DNA of 64,000 bases, from positions 1 to 64,000 of the forward strand of contig NZ_RSEL01000003.1 in assembly GCF_003958625.1 (NCBI RefSeq), read 5' to 3'. The position numbers and the translations under genes are program-made. The stretch is from Tsuneonella rigui (GTDB lineage Bacteria > Pseudomonadota > Alphaproteobacteria > Sphingomonadales > Sphingomonadaceae). The notes beneath the pieces were generated by a model. It had not been told where the DNA came from. It was given only the letters and a program-made list of their open reading frames with translations, and ran no database searches. Positions 28,985-34,762 of this stretch are shown here, one piece after another. Position 1 is the stretch's first letter. Every line of letters begins with the position of its first letter.

Positions 28985-29117
28985 ACCCCAGTTTGTGCCA
29001 TCGCTGTAAGAGCCGCAAGGCCTCGAACCCGTCAGAGAGAGTGCGAGGTCGCCACCGCAACCGCCTCCTCGGACGCGGGCCGCACACCGGGGTGGAAATT
29101 TTGTTGCCGTTATGCTA

Positions 29118-29123
29118 TATAAT
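29118..29123 (+). promoter_or_regulatory. Possible promoter -10 element for carD
   Basis: In the 292-base region before carD, TATAAT (29118-29123) is preceded by TGC, like an extended -10 (ATGCTATATAATG). No convincing TTGACA lies 16-18 bases upstream (GTGGAAATTTT is there). This is the most promoter-like site in the region; the downstream leader would be about 145 bases. Confidence 0.35.
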
Positions 29124-29276
29124 GCAACAAGCGCGCTGGTGACCGAGTCCCGGCGGCGACGTTCGTATCGGAAAGGCGCGGCACTCTAGCGACACGACAG
29201 TCTGCTTGCGATCGGCTTTCCAGCCGGTTGCGAAGAGCCTGACGCCTCGCGTTCGCCGCCCATGAAAGGAATTTTG

Positions 29277-29813
29277 ATGGCTAGCCAGGCCCCCACCGCC
29301 TTCGAGGTCGGCGACTACGTGGTTTATCCCAAGCACGGCGTGGGCCGTGTGGTCGAGCTGCAGAGCGAAGAGATCGCCGGCATGAAGCTCGATCTCTATG
29401 TGCTCCGGTTCGAGAAAGAGCGGATGACCCTGCGGGTGCCCGTCAACAAGATCGAATCAATCGGCATGCGCAAGCTGTCGAGCGACAAGACCCTGCGCGA
29501 GGCGATGGAGACCCTGAAGGGCAAGCCCAAGGTCAAGCGCACGATGTGGAGCCGCCGTGCGCAGGAATACGAAGCGAAGATCAACTCGGGCGACCTGGTC
29601 TCGATCGCCGAGGTGACCCGCGACCTGTTCCGCCCCGAAGACCAGCCCGAGCAGAGCTACTCCGAACGGCAGATCTTCGAAGCCGCCTCGTCGCGCCTCG
29701 CGCGTGAGCTGGCCGCGATGGAAAAGACCGACGAGCCGACCGCGCTCGGCAAGATCCTCGCCGTGCTGCGCGAGCACGCGCCGAAGTACTACGAGACCGC
29801 TGAAGAGGCGTAA
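29277..29813 (+). CDS. CarD family transcriptional regulator (CdnL)
   Basis: RNA polymerase-binding regulator of 178 residues that stabilises open promoter complexes at rRNA and other growth promoters. The N-terminal RNAP-interaction Tudor-like domain is seen in FEVGDYVVYPKHGVGRVVEL, and LYVLRFEKERMTLRVPVNKIESIGMR follows; the helical C-terminal DNA-contacting domain contains MWSRRAQEYEAKINSGDLVSIAEVTRDLFR. An AAAGGA lies 6 bases before the ATG at 29277, so the five codons upstream of it in the open frame are not translated. A strong terminator follows. Confidence 0.95.
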   Translation: MASQAPTAFEVGDYVVYPKHGVGRVVELQSEEIAGMKLDLYVLRFEKERMTLRVPVNKIESIGMRKLSSDKTLREAMETLKGKPKVKRTMWSRRAQEYEAKINSGDLVSIAEVTRDLFRPEDQPEQSYSERQIFEAASSRLARELAAMEKTDEPTALGKILAVLREHAPKYYETAEEA

Positions 29814-29835
29814 GCCTCAAGGCTGACGAAAAAAG

Positions 29836-29867
29836 GGGCGCTTCCTGTCGCGGGAGGCGCCCTTTTT
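29836..29867 (+). terminator. Rho-independent terminator after carD
   Basis: GGGCGCTTCC-TGTCGC-GGGAGGCGCCC forms an 11-bp stem with G-U pairs at 29836-29862, followed by TTTTT. It lies 22 bases after the carD stop. Confidence 0.88.
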
Positions 29868-29968
29868 CGTGCGCGCTCGACCAGCGGCCTACAACTGCCG
29901 ACGAACGGTCTGGACCGGGTAAGCAGTCCGCGCTACAAATGTAGCGTCAACTGCTGGAGTCCCCCATC

Positions 29969-30700
29969 ATGCTTCCGATCCGCTCTCTGCTTGTAGCTAC
30001 CGCGGCCGTCTCGCTCGCCGCCTCGGCGCTCGCGTTCCCCGGGCATTCGCGCAATGCGCTCGACGAGGGAAAGCCCATTCCCACCGCCTGGTCGGCGACC
30101 GGGAATTTCGACAAGGTCAACGCCGCCGGGCCCGACACCGTGCGGTTCACCACGGGCAATCGCTGGCAGGTCCGTGCCGAGGGTGATCCGAGCACGCTTG
30201 AGCGGCTGCGCTTCCTGGTCGAGGACGGCCAGCTGATCGTCGGCCGCCGCTCGGGCGACCACACCAAGCTGCCCGCCGCTACCATCTACGTCACCGCGCC
30301 GGCCATCCATGCGGCAACGCTCGCCGGTTCGGGCGCGTTCGGGGTCGACCGGCTGAGCGGCGACCAAGTCTCGGCCACCGTCGCCGGGTCGGGCGATCTC
30401 ACCGTCGGCGCGGTTGCCGCGCGCTCGCTCAACGGAACCGTTGCCGGATCGGGCGATCTGACCGTGGCCGGCCGGGCCGAGCGTGCCCGACTGACCATCG
30501 CGGGCAGCGGCACGTTCGACGGCCGGCAGTTTGCCGCCGGCGGGGCAAGCGTCACGGTCGCGGGGTCGGGCGACATGACCTTCCGTTCGAACGGCACGGT
30601 CACCGCGACCATCACCGGCAGCGGCGACATCGCGGTCCACGGCAGCGCGACCTGCAAGCAATCGCGGATCGGCTCAGGCCGCCTCACCTGCGGCGCCTGA
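29969..30700 (+). CDS. DUF2807 (GIN domain) exported protein
   Basis: Secreted protein of 243 residues with a signal peptide ending near SALAF. The mature region is the GIN/DUF2807 repeat beta-helix seen in putative auto-transporter head proteins: after VRAEGDPSTLERLRFLVEDG, successive strands repeat AGSGAF, AGSGDL, AGSGDL, AGSGTF, AGSGDM and TGSGDI, spaced about 20-25 residues, ending in IGSGRLTC. A single C-terminal pair of cysteines may form a disulphide. It is an envelope protein of unknown role. It is followed by a terminator hairpin and then a paralogue in tandem. Confidence 0.88.
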   Translation: MLPIRSLLVATAAVSLAASALAFPGHSRNALDEGKPIPTAWSATGNFDKVNAAGPDTVRFTTGNRWQVRAEGDPSTLERLRFLVEDGQLIVGRRSGDHTKLPAATIYVTAPAIHAATLAGSGAFGVDRLSGDQVSATVAGSGDLTVGAVAARSLNGTVAGSGDLTVAGRAERARLTIAGSGTFDGRQFAAGGASVTVAGSGDMTFRSNGTVTATITGSGDIAVHGSATCKQSRIGSGRLTCGA

Positions 30701-30727
30701 TCGACCACCTGCCAACCGTCATCGACT

Positions 30728-30753
30728 AAGGGCCGCTCTCTCGGGCGGCCCTT
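30728..30753 (+). terminator. Terminator-like hairpin after the first GIN gene
   Basis: AAGGGCCGC-TCTCTCGG-GCGGCCCTT is a perfect 9-bp stem with an 8-base loop, 28 bases after the stop. The T-run is weak (CTTCTC). The same stem sequence AAGGGCCGC/GCGGCCCTT recurs after the second GIN gene at 31685-31725. Confidence 0.65.
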
Positions 30754-30833
30754 CTCGCATGCGCCATTGCCGGACCGCACTTGCTGTATTATATCGGCAA
30801 TACGGACTGGATCATTGTGAGGATCGAAGGTTC

Positions 30834-31655
30834 ATGTTGCACAAGATTTTGAAAGGCGTCGCGCCGGTGTTCGCCATCGCGCTCGCGGCGGGCATCTCGG
30901 GCTGCGATAGCCATATCTCGGTCAACGGCCACGAAGGCGTGCCGCTGTCCGAGCTCGACCTCAATGGCAAGGCGCCGACCGAGCTGGTGCTCGCCGGGCC
31001 CGACAACGTCATCGTCACGCGCGGCGACAAGCTGACGATCGATGTCGGCGGCGATCCCGCGGTCGCCGAGGCGCTGCGTTTCACGCTCGACGACAAGTCA
31101 TTGGGCGTGATGCGCAAGAACGGCTGGAAGGGCGAGGGCAAGGCGACCGTGCGCGTTACCCTGCCCGATCTCGCCAAGCTGACGCTCGCGGGTTCGGGCA
31201 CGATCGACGCCGACCGCCTGACCGGCGATGTCGATGCGGTGATCGCGGGCAGCGGTACCGCGCGGGTCAAATCGGTGGAGACCGACAAGCTCGACGTGAC
31301 GATTGCCGGCTCGGGCACGCTGGAGGCGGCAGGCCGGGCCAAGGATCTCGATCTCACCGTCGCCGGTTCGGGCACCGCCAACATGGCGGGGCTCAAGGTC
31401 GACAATGCCGACGTCACGATCGCCGGCTCTGGCGATGCTAGCTTCGCCTCGGACGGCAAGGTCGACGCGACCGTGATGGGGTCGGGGAACGTGACGGTCA
31501 CCGGCAACGCCAAGTGCACCATCCAATCGATGGGCTCGGGTAAGCTGCACTGCACGGCCGGCACCACTTCGCAAGGCATGGGCGACGCGCCGCCGCCGCC
31601 CGCTGCCCCGCCGGCTCCGCCGCCGCCCCCGGGCGACACGCCGACCCCTGAGTAA
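30834..31655 (+). CDS. DUF2807 (GIN domain) lipoprotein
   Basis: Paralogue of the preceding gene, 273 residues, but lipid-anchored: the signal peptide ends in a lipobox GISGC with the modified Cys at about residue 24. The mature part has the same repeat rhythm (AGSGTI, AGSGTA, AGSGTL, AGSGTA, AGSGDA, MGSGNV), then SMGSGKLHC. The C-terminus is a Pro/Ala-rich tail (DAPPPPAAPPAPPPPPG). I start at the ATG at 30834 (MLHKILKGV); the longer frame starts before the promoter-like region. A possible -10 TATTAT lies at 30787. Outer- or inner-membrane location is unclear; after Cys comes Asp, which in enterobacteria favours inner-membrane retention. Confidence 0.87.
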   Translation: MLHKILKGVAPVFAIALAAGISGCDSHISVNGHEGVPLSELDLNGKAPTELVLAGPDNVIVTRGDKLTIDVGGDPAVAEALRFTLDDKSLGVMRKNGWKGEGKATVRVTLPDLAKLTLAGSGTIDADRLTGDVDAVIAGSGTARVKSVETDKLDVTIAGSGTLEAAGRAKDLDLTVAGSGTANMAGLKVDNADVTIAGSGDASFASDGKVDATVMGSGNVTVTGNAKCTIQSMGSGKLHCTAGTTSQGMGDAPPPPAAPPAPPPPPGDTPTPE

Positions 31656-31684
31656 ATTCATCGCCCCGCAACGCCGGGGCATGT

Positions 31685-31725
31685 AAGGGCCGCGCACCGA
31701 AAGGAATTTTCGATGCGCGGCCCTT
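31685..31725 (+). promoter_or_regulatory. Long hairpin enclosing the start region of the lipoprotein gene
   Basis: A perfect 12-bp inverted repeat, AAGGGCCGCGCA (31685-31696) and TGCGCGGCCCTT (31714-31725), continues inward after one C-A mismatch with CGAAA/TTTCG, leaving a GGAAT loop. The Shine-Dalgarno AAGGA sits in the loop and the ATG (31713-31715) lies in the stem. In mRNA this would hide the start codon. It may also act as terminator for the GIN lipoprotein gene, whose stop is 29 bases upstream, although no T-run follows. Confidence 0.75.
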
Positions 31726-32042
31726 CGCTTGTCCTGCTCGCAATTGCTTCGTTCAGCGTCTCCGGCTGTCTCGCCAAGACCGCGCTCGATGTCGCCACCG
31801 CACCGGTGCGCGTAGCGTCGAAGGCGGTCGATCTCGCGACCACCAGCCAGTCCGAGGCGGACGAGAAGCGGGGCCGCGAAATCCGCAAGCGCGAGGAGCG
31901 GCTCGGCCAGCTTCAGCGCGAGCGCGACAAGAGCGACAAGGCGTGCCTCAACGGCGATCGTCGCGCGTGCGACCGCTCTTCGGCGCTCAACGCCGAGATC
32001 CAGCTTCTGTTGCCGCAGGTCCCGGTCGAGCCGGAACGCTAG
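31713..32042 (+). CDS. Small lipoprotein, function unknown
   Basis: Lipoprotein of 109 residues with lipobox SVSGC (Cys at residue 19). The mature protein starts LAKTALDVATAPVRVASKAVDLATTSQSEADEKRG in pieces, then a charged helical region KREERLGQLQRERDK, probably coiled coil, and a Cys pair in KACLNGDRRACDRS. No family is recognised; small coiled-coil lipoproteins of this sort act in the envelope. The first five codons are in the 3' arm of a long hairpin, so translation may be controlled. It overlaps the threonylcarbamoyl-AMP synthase gene end by 4 bases (convergent). Confidence 0.82.
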   Translation: MRGPSLVLLAIASFSVSGCLAKTALDVATAPVRVASKAVDLATTSQSEADEKRGREIRKREERLGQLQRERDKSDKACLNGDRRACDRSSALNAEIQLLLPQVPVEPER

Positions 32043-32977
32043 GCCGCCGCGCGGCGCAGGCGGTCGTTGATCGCAGCGCCGATGTGGTGATCCGGGATCG
32101 GGGCGACCGCGACTTTGGGATGCGCAGACGCGGCAGCCGCGTGAAGCGCGGCGTAGAGGCGTGCGGCCGCCTCCGGCAGATCGCCCGTCGGCGACAGATT
32201 GCAGTCACCCGCGATCGCCCCGAAGCCGATCATGAACTCGTCCGCTGCCGCTTCGCTGGCGTTGAGCCGGACCGGCTTGCCGGGCGAATAGTGCTGCGCA
32301 AGTTGGCCCGGCGCCTCGATCCGCGCCGATTGCATCTCCATGGGCGCACCGAGCAGCGCGACGAGGTCCCGCTCAGGTACCGGGCCGGCGCGCAGCAGCT
32401 GCCACCCATTTTCGCGCACCGCGACGATGGTCGATTCGAGACCACGCTCGCTGGTCCCGCCGTCGAGGACGGCATCGATCCGCCCCTCCAGGCTCGCCCG
32501 CACATGCTCGGGGGCGGTAGGACTGACCGCGCCGCTGCGATTCGCCGAAGGGGCCGCAAGCGGTAGTCCGCTCGCTTTGAGCACCGCGCGCATGATCGGA
32601 TGAGCGGGACAGCGCAGCGCGATCGTGGGCAGGCCCGCGGTTACGGCGGGCGCGATGGCCGCTTCGGGCAGTAGCGGCAGCACGAGGGTCAGCGGCCCCG
32701 GCCAGAAACGCCGCACCAGCGCGAGTGCGCGCTCGTCAAATTGCGCGAGCCTTTCCGCCGCCGCGAGGTCAGGCACATGCACGATCAGCGGGTTGAAGTC
32801 GGGCCGCCCCTTGGCGCGGTACAGGGCGGCCACCGCCTCCGCCCGGTCCGCGCGCGCAGCGAGGCCGTAGACGGTCTCGGTCGGCAGCGCGACGAGTCCG
32901 CCCGCCTCGAGCAGCGCCGCGGCGCGGCCAATACCGGCTTGGTCCGCCCCCAGCTTTTCGGTGTGCTTGTCGCCCAT
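32039..32977 (-). CDS. L-threonylcarbamoyladenylate synthase (Sua5/TsaC family)
   Basis: Makes threonylcarbamoyl-AMP from threonine, bicarbonate and ATP for t6A37 of tRNA; 312 residues. The N-terminal YrdC-like domain (about 10-205) contains GLVALPTETVYGLAARAD, the KGRPDFNPLIVHV nucleotide-binding block and the SANRSG loop; the C-terminal Sua5 domain (about 235-312) makes this the long Sua5-type rather than TsaC. The normal linker HYSPGKPV is present, a segment that closes over the active site. Divergent from the acyl-CoA dehydrogenase gene. Confidence 0.94.
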   Translation of the reverse strand: MGDKHTEKLGADQAGIGRAAALLEAGGLVALPTETVYGLAARADRAEAVAALYRAKGRPDFNPLIVHVPDLAAAERLAQFDERALALVRRFWPGPLTLVLPLLPEAAIAPAVTAGLPTIALRCPAHPIMRAVLKASGLPLAAPSANRSGAVSPTAPEHVRASLEGRIDAVLDGGTSERGLESTIVAVRENGWQLLRAGPVPERDLVALLGAPMEMQSARIEAPGQLAQHYSPGKPVRLNASEAAADEFMIGFGAIAGDCNLSPTGDLPEAAARLYAALHAAAASAHPKVAVAPIPDHHIGAAINDRLRRAAA

Positions 32978-33028
32978 CGGCGCGCGCTATAAGCGCACAT
33001 CGCCGCCAGGCCCAAGGAGAACCGCCCC

Positions 33029-34762
33029 GTGTATCGCCCCGCCACCGCCGACCAGTTGCTCGCGCTCGAAGTCTGCGCCGGGATCGGCGAGCTCGCGCAG
33101 TCCGAGCGCTTCGCCGCCGCCGAGCCCGACATGGTCGCGGCGATCGTCGAGGGGATCGGGGCGTTCGCCGCGGGCGAATGGGCGCCGCTCAATCGGATTG
33201 GAGATCTCGAAGGCGCCAAGCTCGAAAACGGCGTGGTGCGGCTGCCAGCGGGCTTCAATGAAGCGTATGATCACTACGTCGAACAGGGCTGGAACACCGT
33301 CGCAGCGCCTGCCGAACACGGCGGACAGGGCCTGCCGTTTGCCTTGGGCTGCAACGTCCTCGAAAATCTCGGCACTGCGAACTTCGCGTTCAACCTGCTG
33401 CCGATGCTCACCACCGGCGCGATCGATGCGCTGGAGCAGCACGGCAGCGCAGCGCAGCAGGCGCTCTACCTGCCGAAGATGATCAGCGGCGAATGGTCGG
33501 GGACGATGAACCTAACCGAGCCGCAGGCCGGCAGTGACCTTGGCGCGCTGCGCTCCACCGCAACCCCGGTCGAAGACGGCGAGCACGCCGGCAAGTACCG
33601 GATCGCCGGGACCAAGATCTTCATCACCTGGGGCGATCACGAGTTGGCCGACAACGTCATTCACCTCGTCCTCGCGCGCCTGCCCGATGCACCCGAGGGC
33701 AGCCGCGGTATCTCGCTGTTCGTGGTGCCCAAATACCACGTCAACGCCGACGGCTCGCTCGGCGCGCGCAACGATGTCCGCGCGGTCAGCCTCGAGCACA
33801 AGCTCGGCATCCACGCCTCGCCGACCTGCGTCATGTCCTACGGCGACAACGGCGAGTGCATCGGCGAGCTGGTCGGCCAGCCCAACCGCGGGCTGATGGC
33901 CATGTTCACCATGATGAATAACGCGCGGATCAACGTCGGCAACCAGGGCGTGCAGATCGGCGAACGCGCGACCCAGGCGGCGCTCGAATACGCGCGCGAG
34001 CGCGTGCAGTCGGTCCGCGCCGGCTCCGCCGACCGCGCGCCCGTCGCGATCATCGAGCATCCCGACGTTCGGCGCATGCTGCTGCGCATGAAGGCGCTGA
34101 CCGAGGGCGCGCGGGCGCTGCTCTACTATACCGCCGGCCAGGTCGATCGCGGCACGCTGGGTGATGCCGCGGCGGCGGCGCGCGGCGAATGCCTGGTGCC
34201 GATGCTCAAGGCGTGGGGCACCGACGTCGGGGTCGAGGTCGCCAGCCTCGGCGTCCAAGTCCACGGCGGGATGGGCTTCGTCGAGGAGACCGGCGCGGCG
34301 CAGCACTATCGCGACGCCCGCATCGCGCCGATCTACGAAGGCACGAACGGCATCCAGGCGGCAGACCTCGTGACCCGCAAGCTGGGGCTGGAGGGCGGCG
34401 AGGCGCTCGACGCGCTGCTGGCTAACGCGCAGAACGGCACAACCGACTCCGCACTCGCCGAGCTTGCGGGCGAATGCCGCGAGATCGCGCGCTGGATGCG
34501 CGATGAGGCGTCGGTCGACGACAAGCTGGCGGGCAGCGTGCCGTTCACCACGATGTGCGCGGTCGCGGTCGCGGGCTGGCAACTCGCCCGTCAGGCCGAA
34601 GCGGTTGCGGCGGGGGCTGCGCCATCGCTCGCCGCGAGCAAACCGGTGACCGCGCGCTACTTCCTGGAGCAAGTCGTGCCAGAAGCGCTCGGACTCGCGG
34701 CGGCGGCGCGCGGCGGCGCTGAGGTGCTCTACGCGCTGTCGACCGAGGCGCTGACCGCATGA
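33029..34762 (+). CDS. Acyl-CoA dehydrogenase with C-terminal extension (DmdC/FadE-like)
   Basis: FAD-dependent acyl-CoA dehydrogenase of 577 residues with the long C-terminal domain (about 470-570) found in the DmdC and related subfamily. Landmarks: YVEQGWNTVAAPAEHGGQGLP, the FAD-binding MNLTEPQAGSDLG, KIFITWGDHE, and the helical GVQVHGGMGFVEETGAAQHYRDARIAPIYEGTNGIQAADL with the catalytic Glu in IYEGTNGIQ. The start is GTG (33029-33031) after AAGGAGA. The substrate chain is unknown: fatty acyl-CoA or 3-methylthiopropionyl-CoA are options. ATGA-coupled to the DUF815 ATPase. Confidence 0.93.
   Translation: MYRPATADQLLALEVCAGIGELAQSERFAAAEPDMVAAIVEGIGAFAAGEWAPLNRIGDLEGAKLENGVVRLPAGFNEAYDHYVEQGWNTVAAPAEHGGQGLPFALGCNVLENLGTANFAFNLLPMLTTGAIDALEQHGSAAQQALYLPKMISGEWSGTMNLTEPQAGSDLGALRSTATPVEDGEHAGKYRIAGTKIFITWGDHELADNVIHLVLARLPDAPEGSRGISLFVVPKYHVNADGSLGARNDVRAVSLEHKLGIHASPTCVMSYGDNGECIGELVGQPNRGLMAMFTMMNNARINVGNQGVQIGERATQAALEYARERVQSVRAGSADRAPVAIIEHPDVRRMLLRMKALTEGARALLYYTAGQVDRGTLGDAAAAARGECLVPMLKAWGTDVGVEVASLGVQVHGGMGFVEETGAAQHYRDARIAPIYEGTNGIQAADLVTRKLGLEGGEALDALLANAQNGTTDSALAELAGECREIARWMRDEASVDDKLAGSVPFTTMCAVAVAGWQLARQAEAVAAGAAPSLAASKPVTARYFLEQVVPEALGLAAAARGGAEVLYALSTEALTA

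Follow-up and report, generated by a model that had tools for sequence, protein, structure and literature searches.

The window, that is, the whole stretch of 64,000 nucleotides analysed here, is derived from Tsuneonella rigui (contig NZ_RSEL01000003.1, positions 1 to 64,000 of the forward strand). A small lipoprotein gene in it follows the second of two genes with a head GIN domain, further downstream of carD:

29262–29813, + strand, carD (Pfam PF21095 and PF02559)
30728–30753, + strand, palindrome resembling a terminator, downstream of the first GIN gene, with 9 bp in common with the hairpin stem described below
30834–31655, + strand, second DUF2807 (head GIN) gene (Pfam PF10988, E = 5.5e-41; open reading frame with the start codon chosen by eye)
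31713–32042, + strand, lipoprotein gene of 109 amino acids with the lipobox VSGC and no Pfam family (open reading frame and profile searches)

The second GIN gene and the lipoprotein gene are co-directional; the GIN stop (31655) is located 57 nt upstream of the lipoprotein ATG and 30 nt upstream of the hairpin, and this gene is presumed to be the source of read-through. NCBIfam matches of the 109-amino-acid lipoprotein were all under the cut-off. Of 397 family genomes, 352 had an ortholog; in a sample of relatives, 47 of 98 genomes had the lipoprotein, none of them outside the family. No in-frame ATG, GTG or TTG occurs between 31713 and the lipobox cysteine; thus, the start codon is secure, and the possibility raised in the initial annotation that translation starts elsewhere can be set aside.

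The start region of the lipoprotein gene coincides with a long hairpin, and a promoter-like element is located in and beside its 5′ arm, with a TA 27 nt after the first T of TTCATCG:

31657–31666, + strand, conserved TTCATCG element, in which TCGCCC (31661–31666) would serve as −35 hexamer at a distance of 17 nt from the −10 (putative function)
31684–31689, + strand, predicted −10 element TAAGGG of the TA-only type (from the TTCA-to-TA spacing and sigma70 promoters of N. aromaticivorans)
31685–31696, + strand, 5′ outer arm AAGGGCCGCGCA, which overlaps the predicted −10 region (sequence and pairing)
31696, + strand, transcription start predicted from geometry, 12 nt downstream of the T in the −10
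31698–31712, + strand, inner stem CGAAA/TTTCG with the loop GGAAT, holding the Shine-Dalgarno sequence AAAGGA (31700–31705)
31714–31725, + strand, 3′ outer arm TGCGCGGCCCTT, comprising U and G of the AUG, codons 2–4 and one base of codon 5 (sequence and covariation)

Positions 31685–31725 read AAGGGCCGCGCA-C-CGAAA-GGAAT-TTTCG-A-TGCGCGGCCCTT, giving the perfect 12-bp outer stem, the single C-A mismatch and the 5-bp inner stem already described in the initial annotation. Its placement of the AUG in the stem is correct for the paired U and G, whereas the A is the mismatched, unpaired base; the Shine-Dalgarno sequence, said to lie at the loop, actually spans the boundary between inner stem and loop. 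The hairpin in the window was confirmed as real and far beyond chance: the minimum free energy of 31660–31760 was −47.8 kcal/mol versus −35.3 ± 3.1 kcal/mol for shuffled sequences (z = −4.05), and none of 200 shuffles was as low. The opening energy of the start footprint (−12 to +15) amounted to 28.6 kcal/mol, a value reached by none of 60 upstream shuffles, and control gene starts had a median of 14.9 kcal/mol with a 99th percentile of 29.2 kcal/mol (n = 211, sequences containing LAKTA excluded). Among ordinary starts, than which the structure was earlier described as far stronger, the absolute opening energy is thus extreme but not unique. The distinctive feature is the gap in opening energy between the read-through transcript and the gene's own transcript, the latter retaining some structure in the window (−11.4 kcal/mol). 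The opening energy of the three AUG nucleotides was dropped as a poor measure because three bases can open with the stem intact.

The upstream regions of 142 orthologs (82 discovery and 60 test loci), mostly better-scoring matches among the 352 positive genomes rather than a random draw, were analyzed for corresponding structures. The discovery count is 82 of 84, two loci (L036 and L075) being omitted that had no start codon 42–75 nt before the lipobox cysteine; all 60 test loci were counted. A hairpin was called when no more than 1 of 60 shuffles reached the value and when this value exceeded that of the own transcript by at least 6 kcal/mol. By this definition, the start region is predicted to be base-paired in upstream-initiated transcripts of 71 of the 142 loci, under 23 genus labels (hand tally). 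The initial annotation is borne out in that the hairpin occludes the start region. A difference of at least 12 kcal/mol between read-through and own transcript was obtained for 45 of 82 loci versus 7 of 211 control starts. Most loci with a close upstream GIN gene had the coding start paired with an upstream arm; in most hairpin loci both start codon and Shine-Dalgarno sequence were at the hairpin, the latter often close to the loop. In a few loci (e.g., L026 and L070), the hairpin is kept with the chosen ATG within the loop, so that closure of the start region, and not pairing of the AUG itself, is the conserved feature.

The sequence of the upstream arm varies by genus (GGGCCGCGC, GGCTATGCCGCGC, GGCTAGGCG and ATGGACGGCTC, among others). 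Covariation in relatives, proposed earlier as a check, was evaluated in an alignment of 25 of 29 references preselected for canonical arm position and promoter call, a choice that makes the counts lean towards structure. In these 25 loci, 86.6% of the cells were paired, and both sides had changed at 9 of 14 pairs; 35 cells were changed on both sides compared with 11.5 in shuffles (none of 500 had as many) and no more than 15 when the arms were slid. As judged from the aligned sequences, the structure is conserved across the family while its sequence shifts by compensatory substitutions. The 3′ arm is coding; therefore, the noncoding arm followed its changes or both arms moved together. When 5′ regions were swapped between loci, the cognate region gave 24.2 kcal/mol versus 13.6 kcal/mol for foreign ones, ranking top in 25 of 48 cases and among the top three in 40 of 48.

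Besides the Shine-Dalgarno sequence, the words TTCATC and CTATGC were over-represented upstream of the gene. The TTCA-to-TA offset had its maximum at 27 nt, a spacing seen in 30 of 82 discovery loci (next-highest offset, 5 loci) and in 13 of 60 test loci (next-highest, 4); the promoter rule was derived from the discovery set. This arrangement is compatible with a housekeeping promoter having a −35 similar to TCGACC and a TA-only −10, separated by a spacer of 17 nt. According to PMC8407463, the T at −7 is absent from over 80% of the sigma70 promoters of N. aromaticivorans. Promoter-like spacing and position were found in 45 of the 71 hairpin loci, the median extent of the 5′ arm, counted from the predicted start, being −17 to +1. 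In only 12 of these 45 is the arm wholly upstream of that start, the rest retaining a few inner pairs in their own transcript. The assignment is sensitive to the exact position, as initiation at 31692, 4 nt upstream of 31696, already pairs the U and G of the AUG strongly. L019, L062 and L068 keep this promoter spacing, but their 5′ arm is shifted onto the TTCAT element, still ahead of the start, with the −10 in the loop. The feature that is preserved throughout seems to be a 5′ arm located largely upstream of the start. A scan of the window for consensus promoters and terminators gave no call at the hairpin locus. As a stand-alone genome-wide promoter search, TTCATCG-N20-TA was unspecific (24 sites versus 5 for the reversed control) and was rejected. 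A small second stem, GCCCCG/CGGGGC (31663–31680), is present within the promoter spacer of the window and is not evident in relatives.

The occurrence of the hairpin depended on the upstream gene. In the discovery set, it was present in 48 of 72 loci with GIN upstream and in none of 10 without. Predictions on this context were written down before the 60 further loci were fetched. The test set gave 22 of 36 hairpins with GIN at 46–115 nt, 0 of 5 within 45 nt and 0 of 2 beyond 115 nt; without GIN, the numbers were 1 of 7 with carD and 0 of 10 with another gene upstream. For both sets together, the respective values were 70 of 101, 0 of 11 and 0 of 3 with GIN, and 1 of 27 without it (carD 1 of 15, another gene 0 of 12), the 27 loci spanning 16 genus labels (hand tally). 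A Fisher test of 70 of 101 versus 1 of 41 gave p = 2e-14 with phylogeny ignored; the loci are not independent, and such p-values are inflated by their shared ancestry. At a GIN distance of 46–115 nt, the promoter call was made in 44 of 70 hairpin-positive loci (the other 26 being without it) versus 5 of 31 hairpin-negative ones, and with GIN within 45 nt in 0 of 11. The absence of hairpins at this short distance fits a gap that has no room for a promoter; these loci are probably true operons, in which silencing would be self-defeating. It also bears on the earlier proposal that upstream translation opens the hairpin: a GIN gene within 45 nt offers the easiest coupling, yet none of the 11 loci has a hairpin, and in the window the GIN stop precedes the hairpin by 30 nt. 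Translational coupling is therefore not supported.

The carD gene was located immediately 5′ of the lipoprotein gene in 15 of the 142 loci, all without a nearby GIN match. A canonical terminator after carD and no hairpin were seen in L015, L038, L073, L074, L079, L125, L141 and L164 (partly by eye); a script called terminators at 6 of the 15 carD loci (4 of 8, and 2 of 7) and at none of the 12 with a different gene upstream. Under genus label g95, L074 and L125 have a terminator and no hairpin, while L131 has a hairpin and no T-tract terminator; L131, with carD upstream, is the sole locus without GIN that has a hairpin, its arm being upstream of its predicted start. In L131, a hairpin CCTTCCTCC/GGAGGAAGG that occludes the Shine-Dalgarno sequence takes the place of the AUG hairpin, with the 5′ arm in the promoter spacer. 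The GIN locus L159 has no hairpin and a terminator-like stem instead. Loss of the stem with retention of the gene, which the initial annotation regarded as evidence against a function, does occur: it is clearest where the upstream gene is changed or within 45 nt, and 31 of the 101 loci with GIN at 46–115 nt also fail the hairpin criterion, some narrowly (L013, L057 and L069) and others clearly. As the loss tracks the upstream gene, it points to a better explanation, a silencer of read-through.

We consider it probable that the hairpin serves as a read-through silencer built around the embedded promoter of the lipoprotein gene. This reading builds on the hairpin, its compensatory evolution, the conserved promoter-like spacing, the placement of the arm with respect to the promoter-like element and the dependence on upstream context, all of them observed. 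The lipoprotein gene's own promoter would be active in the gap of around 60 nt after the GIN gene, with transcription beginning approximately at the loop-proximal end of the 5′ arm, the exact start site being that predicted from geometry. The resulting mRNA would be devoid of most of the 5′ arm, leaving the start region free for translation. A polymerase running in from the GIN gene would copy the entire 5′ arm, and the mRNA would fold shut and yield no lipoprotein. With such a start, only read-through mRNA would be blocked in translation. The dosage of the lipoprotein would in this way be independent of GIN expression, with no terminator involved. Both in this marine bacterium and in its relatives, probably only messages from the lipoprotein gene's own promoter make protein.

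A conditional translation switch within the normal mRNA, operated by a protein, an sRNA or temperature, would equally account for a start codon and Shine-Dalgarno sequence at a strongly conserved hairpin. We regard it as unlikely, since neither stem sequence nor arm position is conserved, the presence of the hairpin tracks the upstream gene, the promoter-like element is located inside the 5′ arm, and a search of 29000–34000 of the window against Rfam, with matches listed up to an E value of 5, gave none at gathering score and chance-level matches only. The structure would also be too stable to melt: its predicted energy of −29.7 kcal/mol at 37 °C is still −26.2 kcal/mol at 45 °C, and the AUG stays paired almost as before. 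RNA thermometers such as ROSE and fourU likewise have the Shine-Dalgarno sequence or AUG inside a hairpin, but the lipoprotein hairpin is far too stable, matches no thermometer family and depends on context. The thermometer suggested earlier is excluded by the predicted stability.

That the hairpin is mainly a transcription terminator of the GIN operon, overlapping the start of the next gene, appears quite unlikely. A perfect stem rich in GC and placed behind a gene would suit such a role, the first GIN gene is followed by a stem like it, carD-upstream loci without the hairpin often bear a canonical terminator instead, and a 5′ arm upstream of the start would likewise limit its action to read-through RNA. 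However, just 11 of the 71 hairpin loci had a run of at least 4 U at the stem end, the median being 3 U in 8 nt, and no terminator-like site was called at the hairpin in the window; the absent U-tract makes a terminator unlikely. The palindrome after the first GIN gene (AAGGGCCGC...GCGGCCCTT, 30728–30753) occurs at five places in the genome and looks like a generic terminator stem. It had been taken as a copy of the same outer stem, but only 9 of the 12 outer pairs recur in it. The GGGCCGC stem common to both is generic and gives way to other stems at other loci, which, together with the low U content, argues against a re-used terminator. A DNA-level palindrome acting as a regulator site, or an inverted repeat corrected by template switching, in either case without RNA function, would explain the near-perfect inverted repeats. 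Both are highly improbable: pairing persists while the sequence differs between genera, unlike in a protein-binding site, and mutational correction would not depend on an upstream gene or promoter.

One of the seven control starts above the 12-kcal/mol difference precedes what we take, from its sequence, to be an S9-family-like peptidase gene (L088:426–2456). A check within the genus showed the hairpin kept in two genomes; with the orthologs L257 and L258, the Shine-Dalgarno/start region lies in a strong hairpin, GAACCTCCTCCG...CGGGGGAGGTT, in two Tsuneonella genomes, its sequence differing between the two. This start hairpin is possibly a second case. At L104:16272–18851 (− strand), a GGGTGT/ACACCC stem touches the ATG of a presumably clpB-like gene. 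If the silencer reading is correct, bacteria insulate neighbouring genes via RNA folding rather than terminators. A promoter within the 5′ arm of a start hairpin then provides a search recipe, co-transcription need not imply co-expression, and relatives with and without the hairpin allow direct testing.

Promoters embedded in hairpins are best known from phage T4 and are also known from insertion sequences. IS10/Tn10 and IS50 are guarded from outside promoters by read-through RNA that folds over the transposase start; these are mobile elements with terminal repeats, whereas the gene studied here is a core lipoprotein gene. In yeast, long undecoded transcript isoforms (LUTIs) act via upstream ORFs and chromatin. 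They resemble the present case in that an upstream-initiated transcript contains the gene and yields none of its protein, and differ in that here an RNA hairpin over the start region would take the place of upstream ORFs and chromatin. A bacterial counterpart of LUTI control, in which GIN transcription gives an mRNA that includes the lipoprotein gene but is undecodable for it and also lowers lipoprotein expression by passing over the embedded promoter, making GIN and lipoprotein expression mutually exclusive, is a rather doubtful extension.

A literature search covering few subscription journals, and including PMC10971746, retrieved no description of a promoter within a hairpin on a bacterial chromosome. 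The closest parallel is phage T4, in which, according to PMC3014915, the genes e (lysozyme), soc, 49 and I-TevI have leader hairpins with embedded late promoters. Longer transcripts of gene e form an inhibitory structure, whereas the gene's own late promoters are situated where the 5′ strand is encoded, and their transcripts, which lack that strand, are well translated; the arrangement is kept in related phages (PMC3014915). A T4-type late promoter TATAAATA was absent between the GIN stop and the lipoprotein ATG. By analogy, the lipoprotein hairpin would work like that of gene e without being a member of the T4 set. Both share a start-region hairpin in upstream-initiated transcripts, predicted here in the 71 of 142 loci; the present case differs in being a chromosomal gene kept across a bacterial family, with a housekeeping-like promoter geometry and an arrangement that tracks the upstream neighbour.
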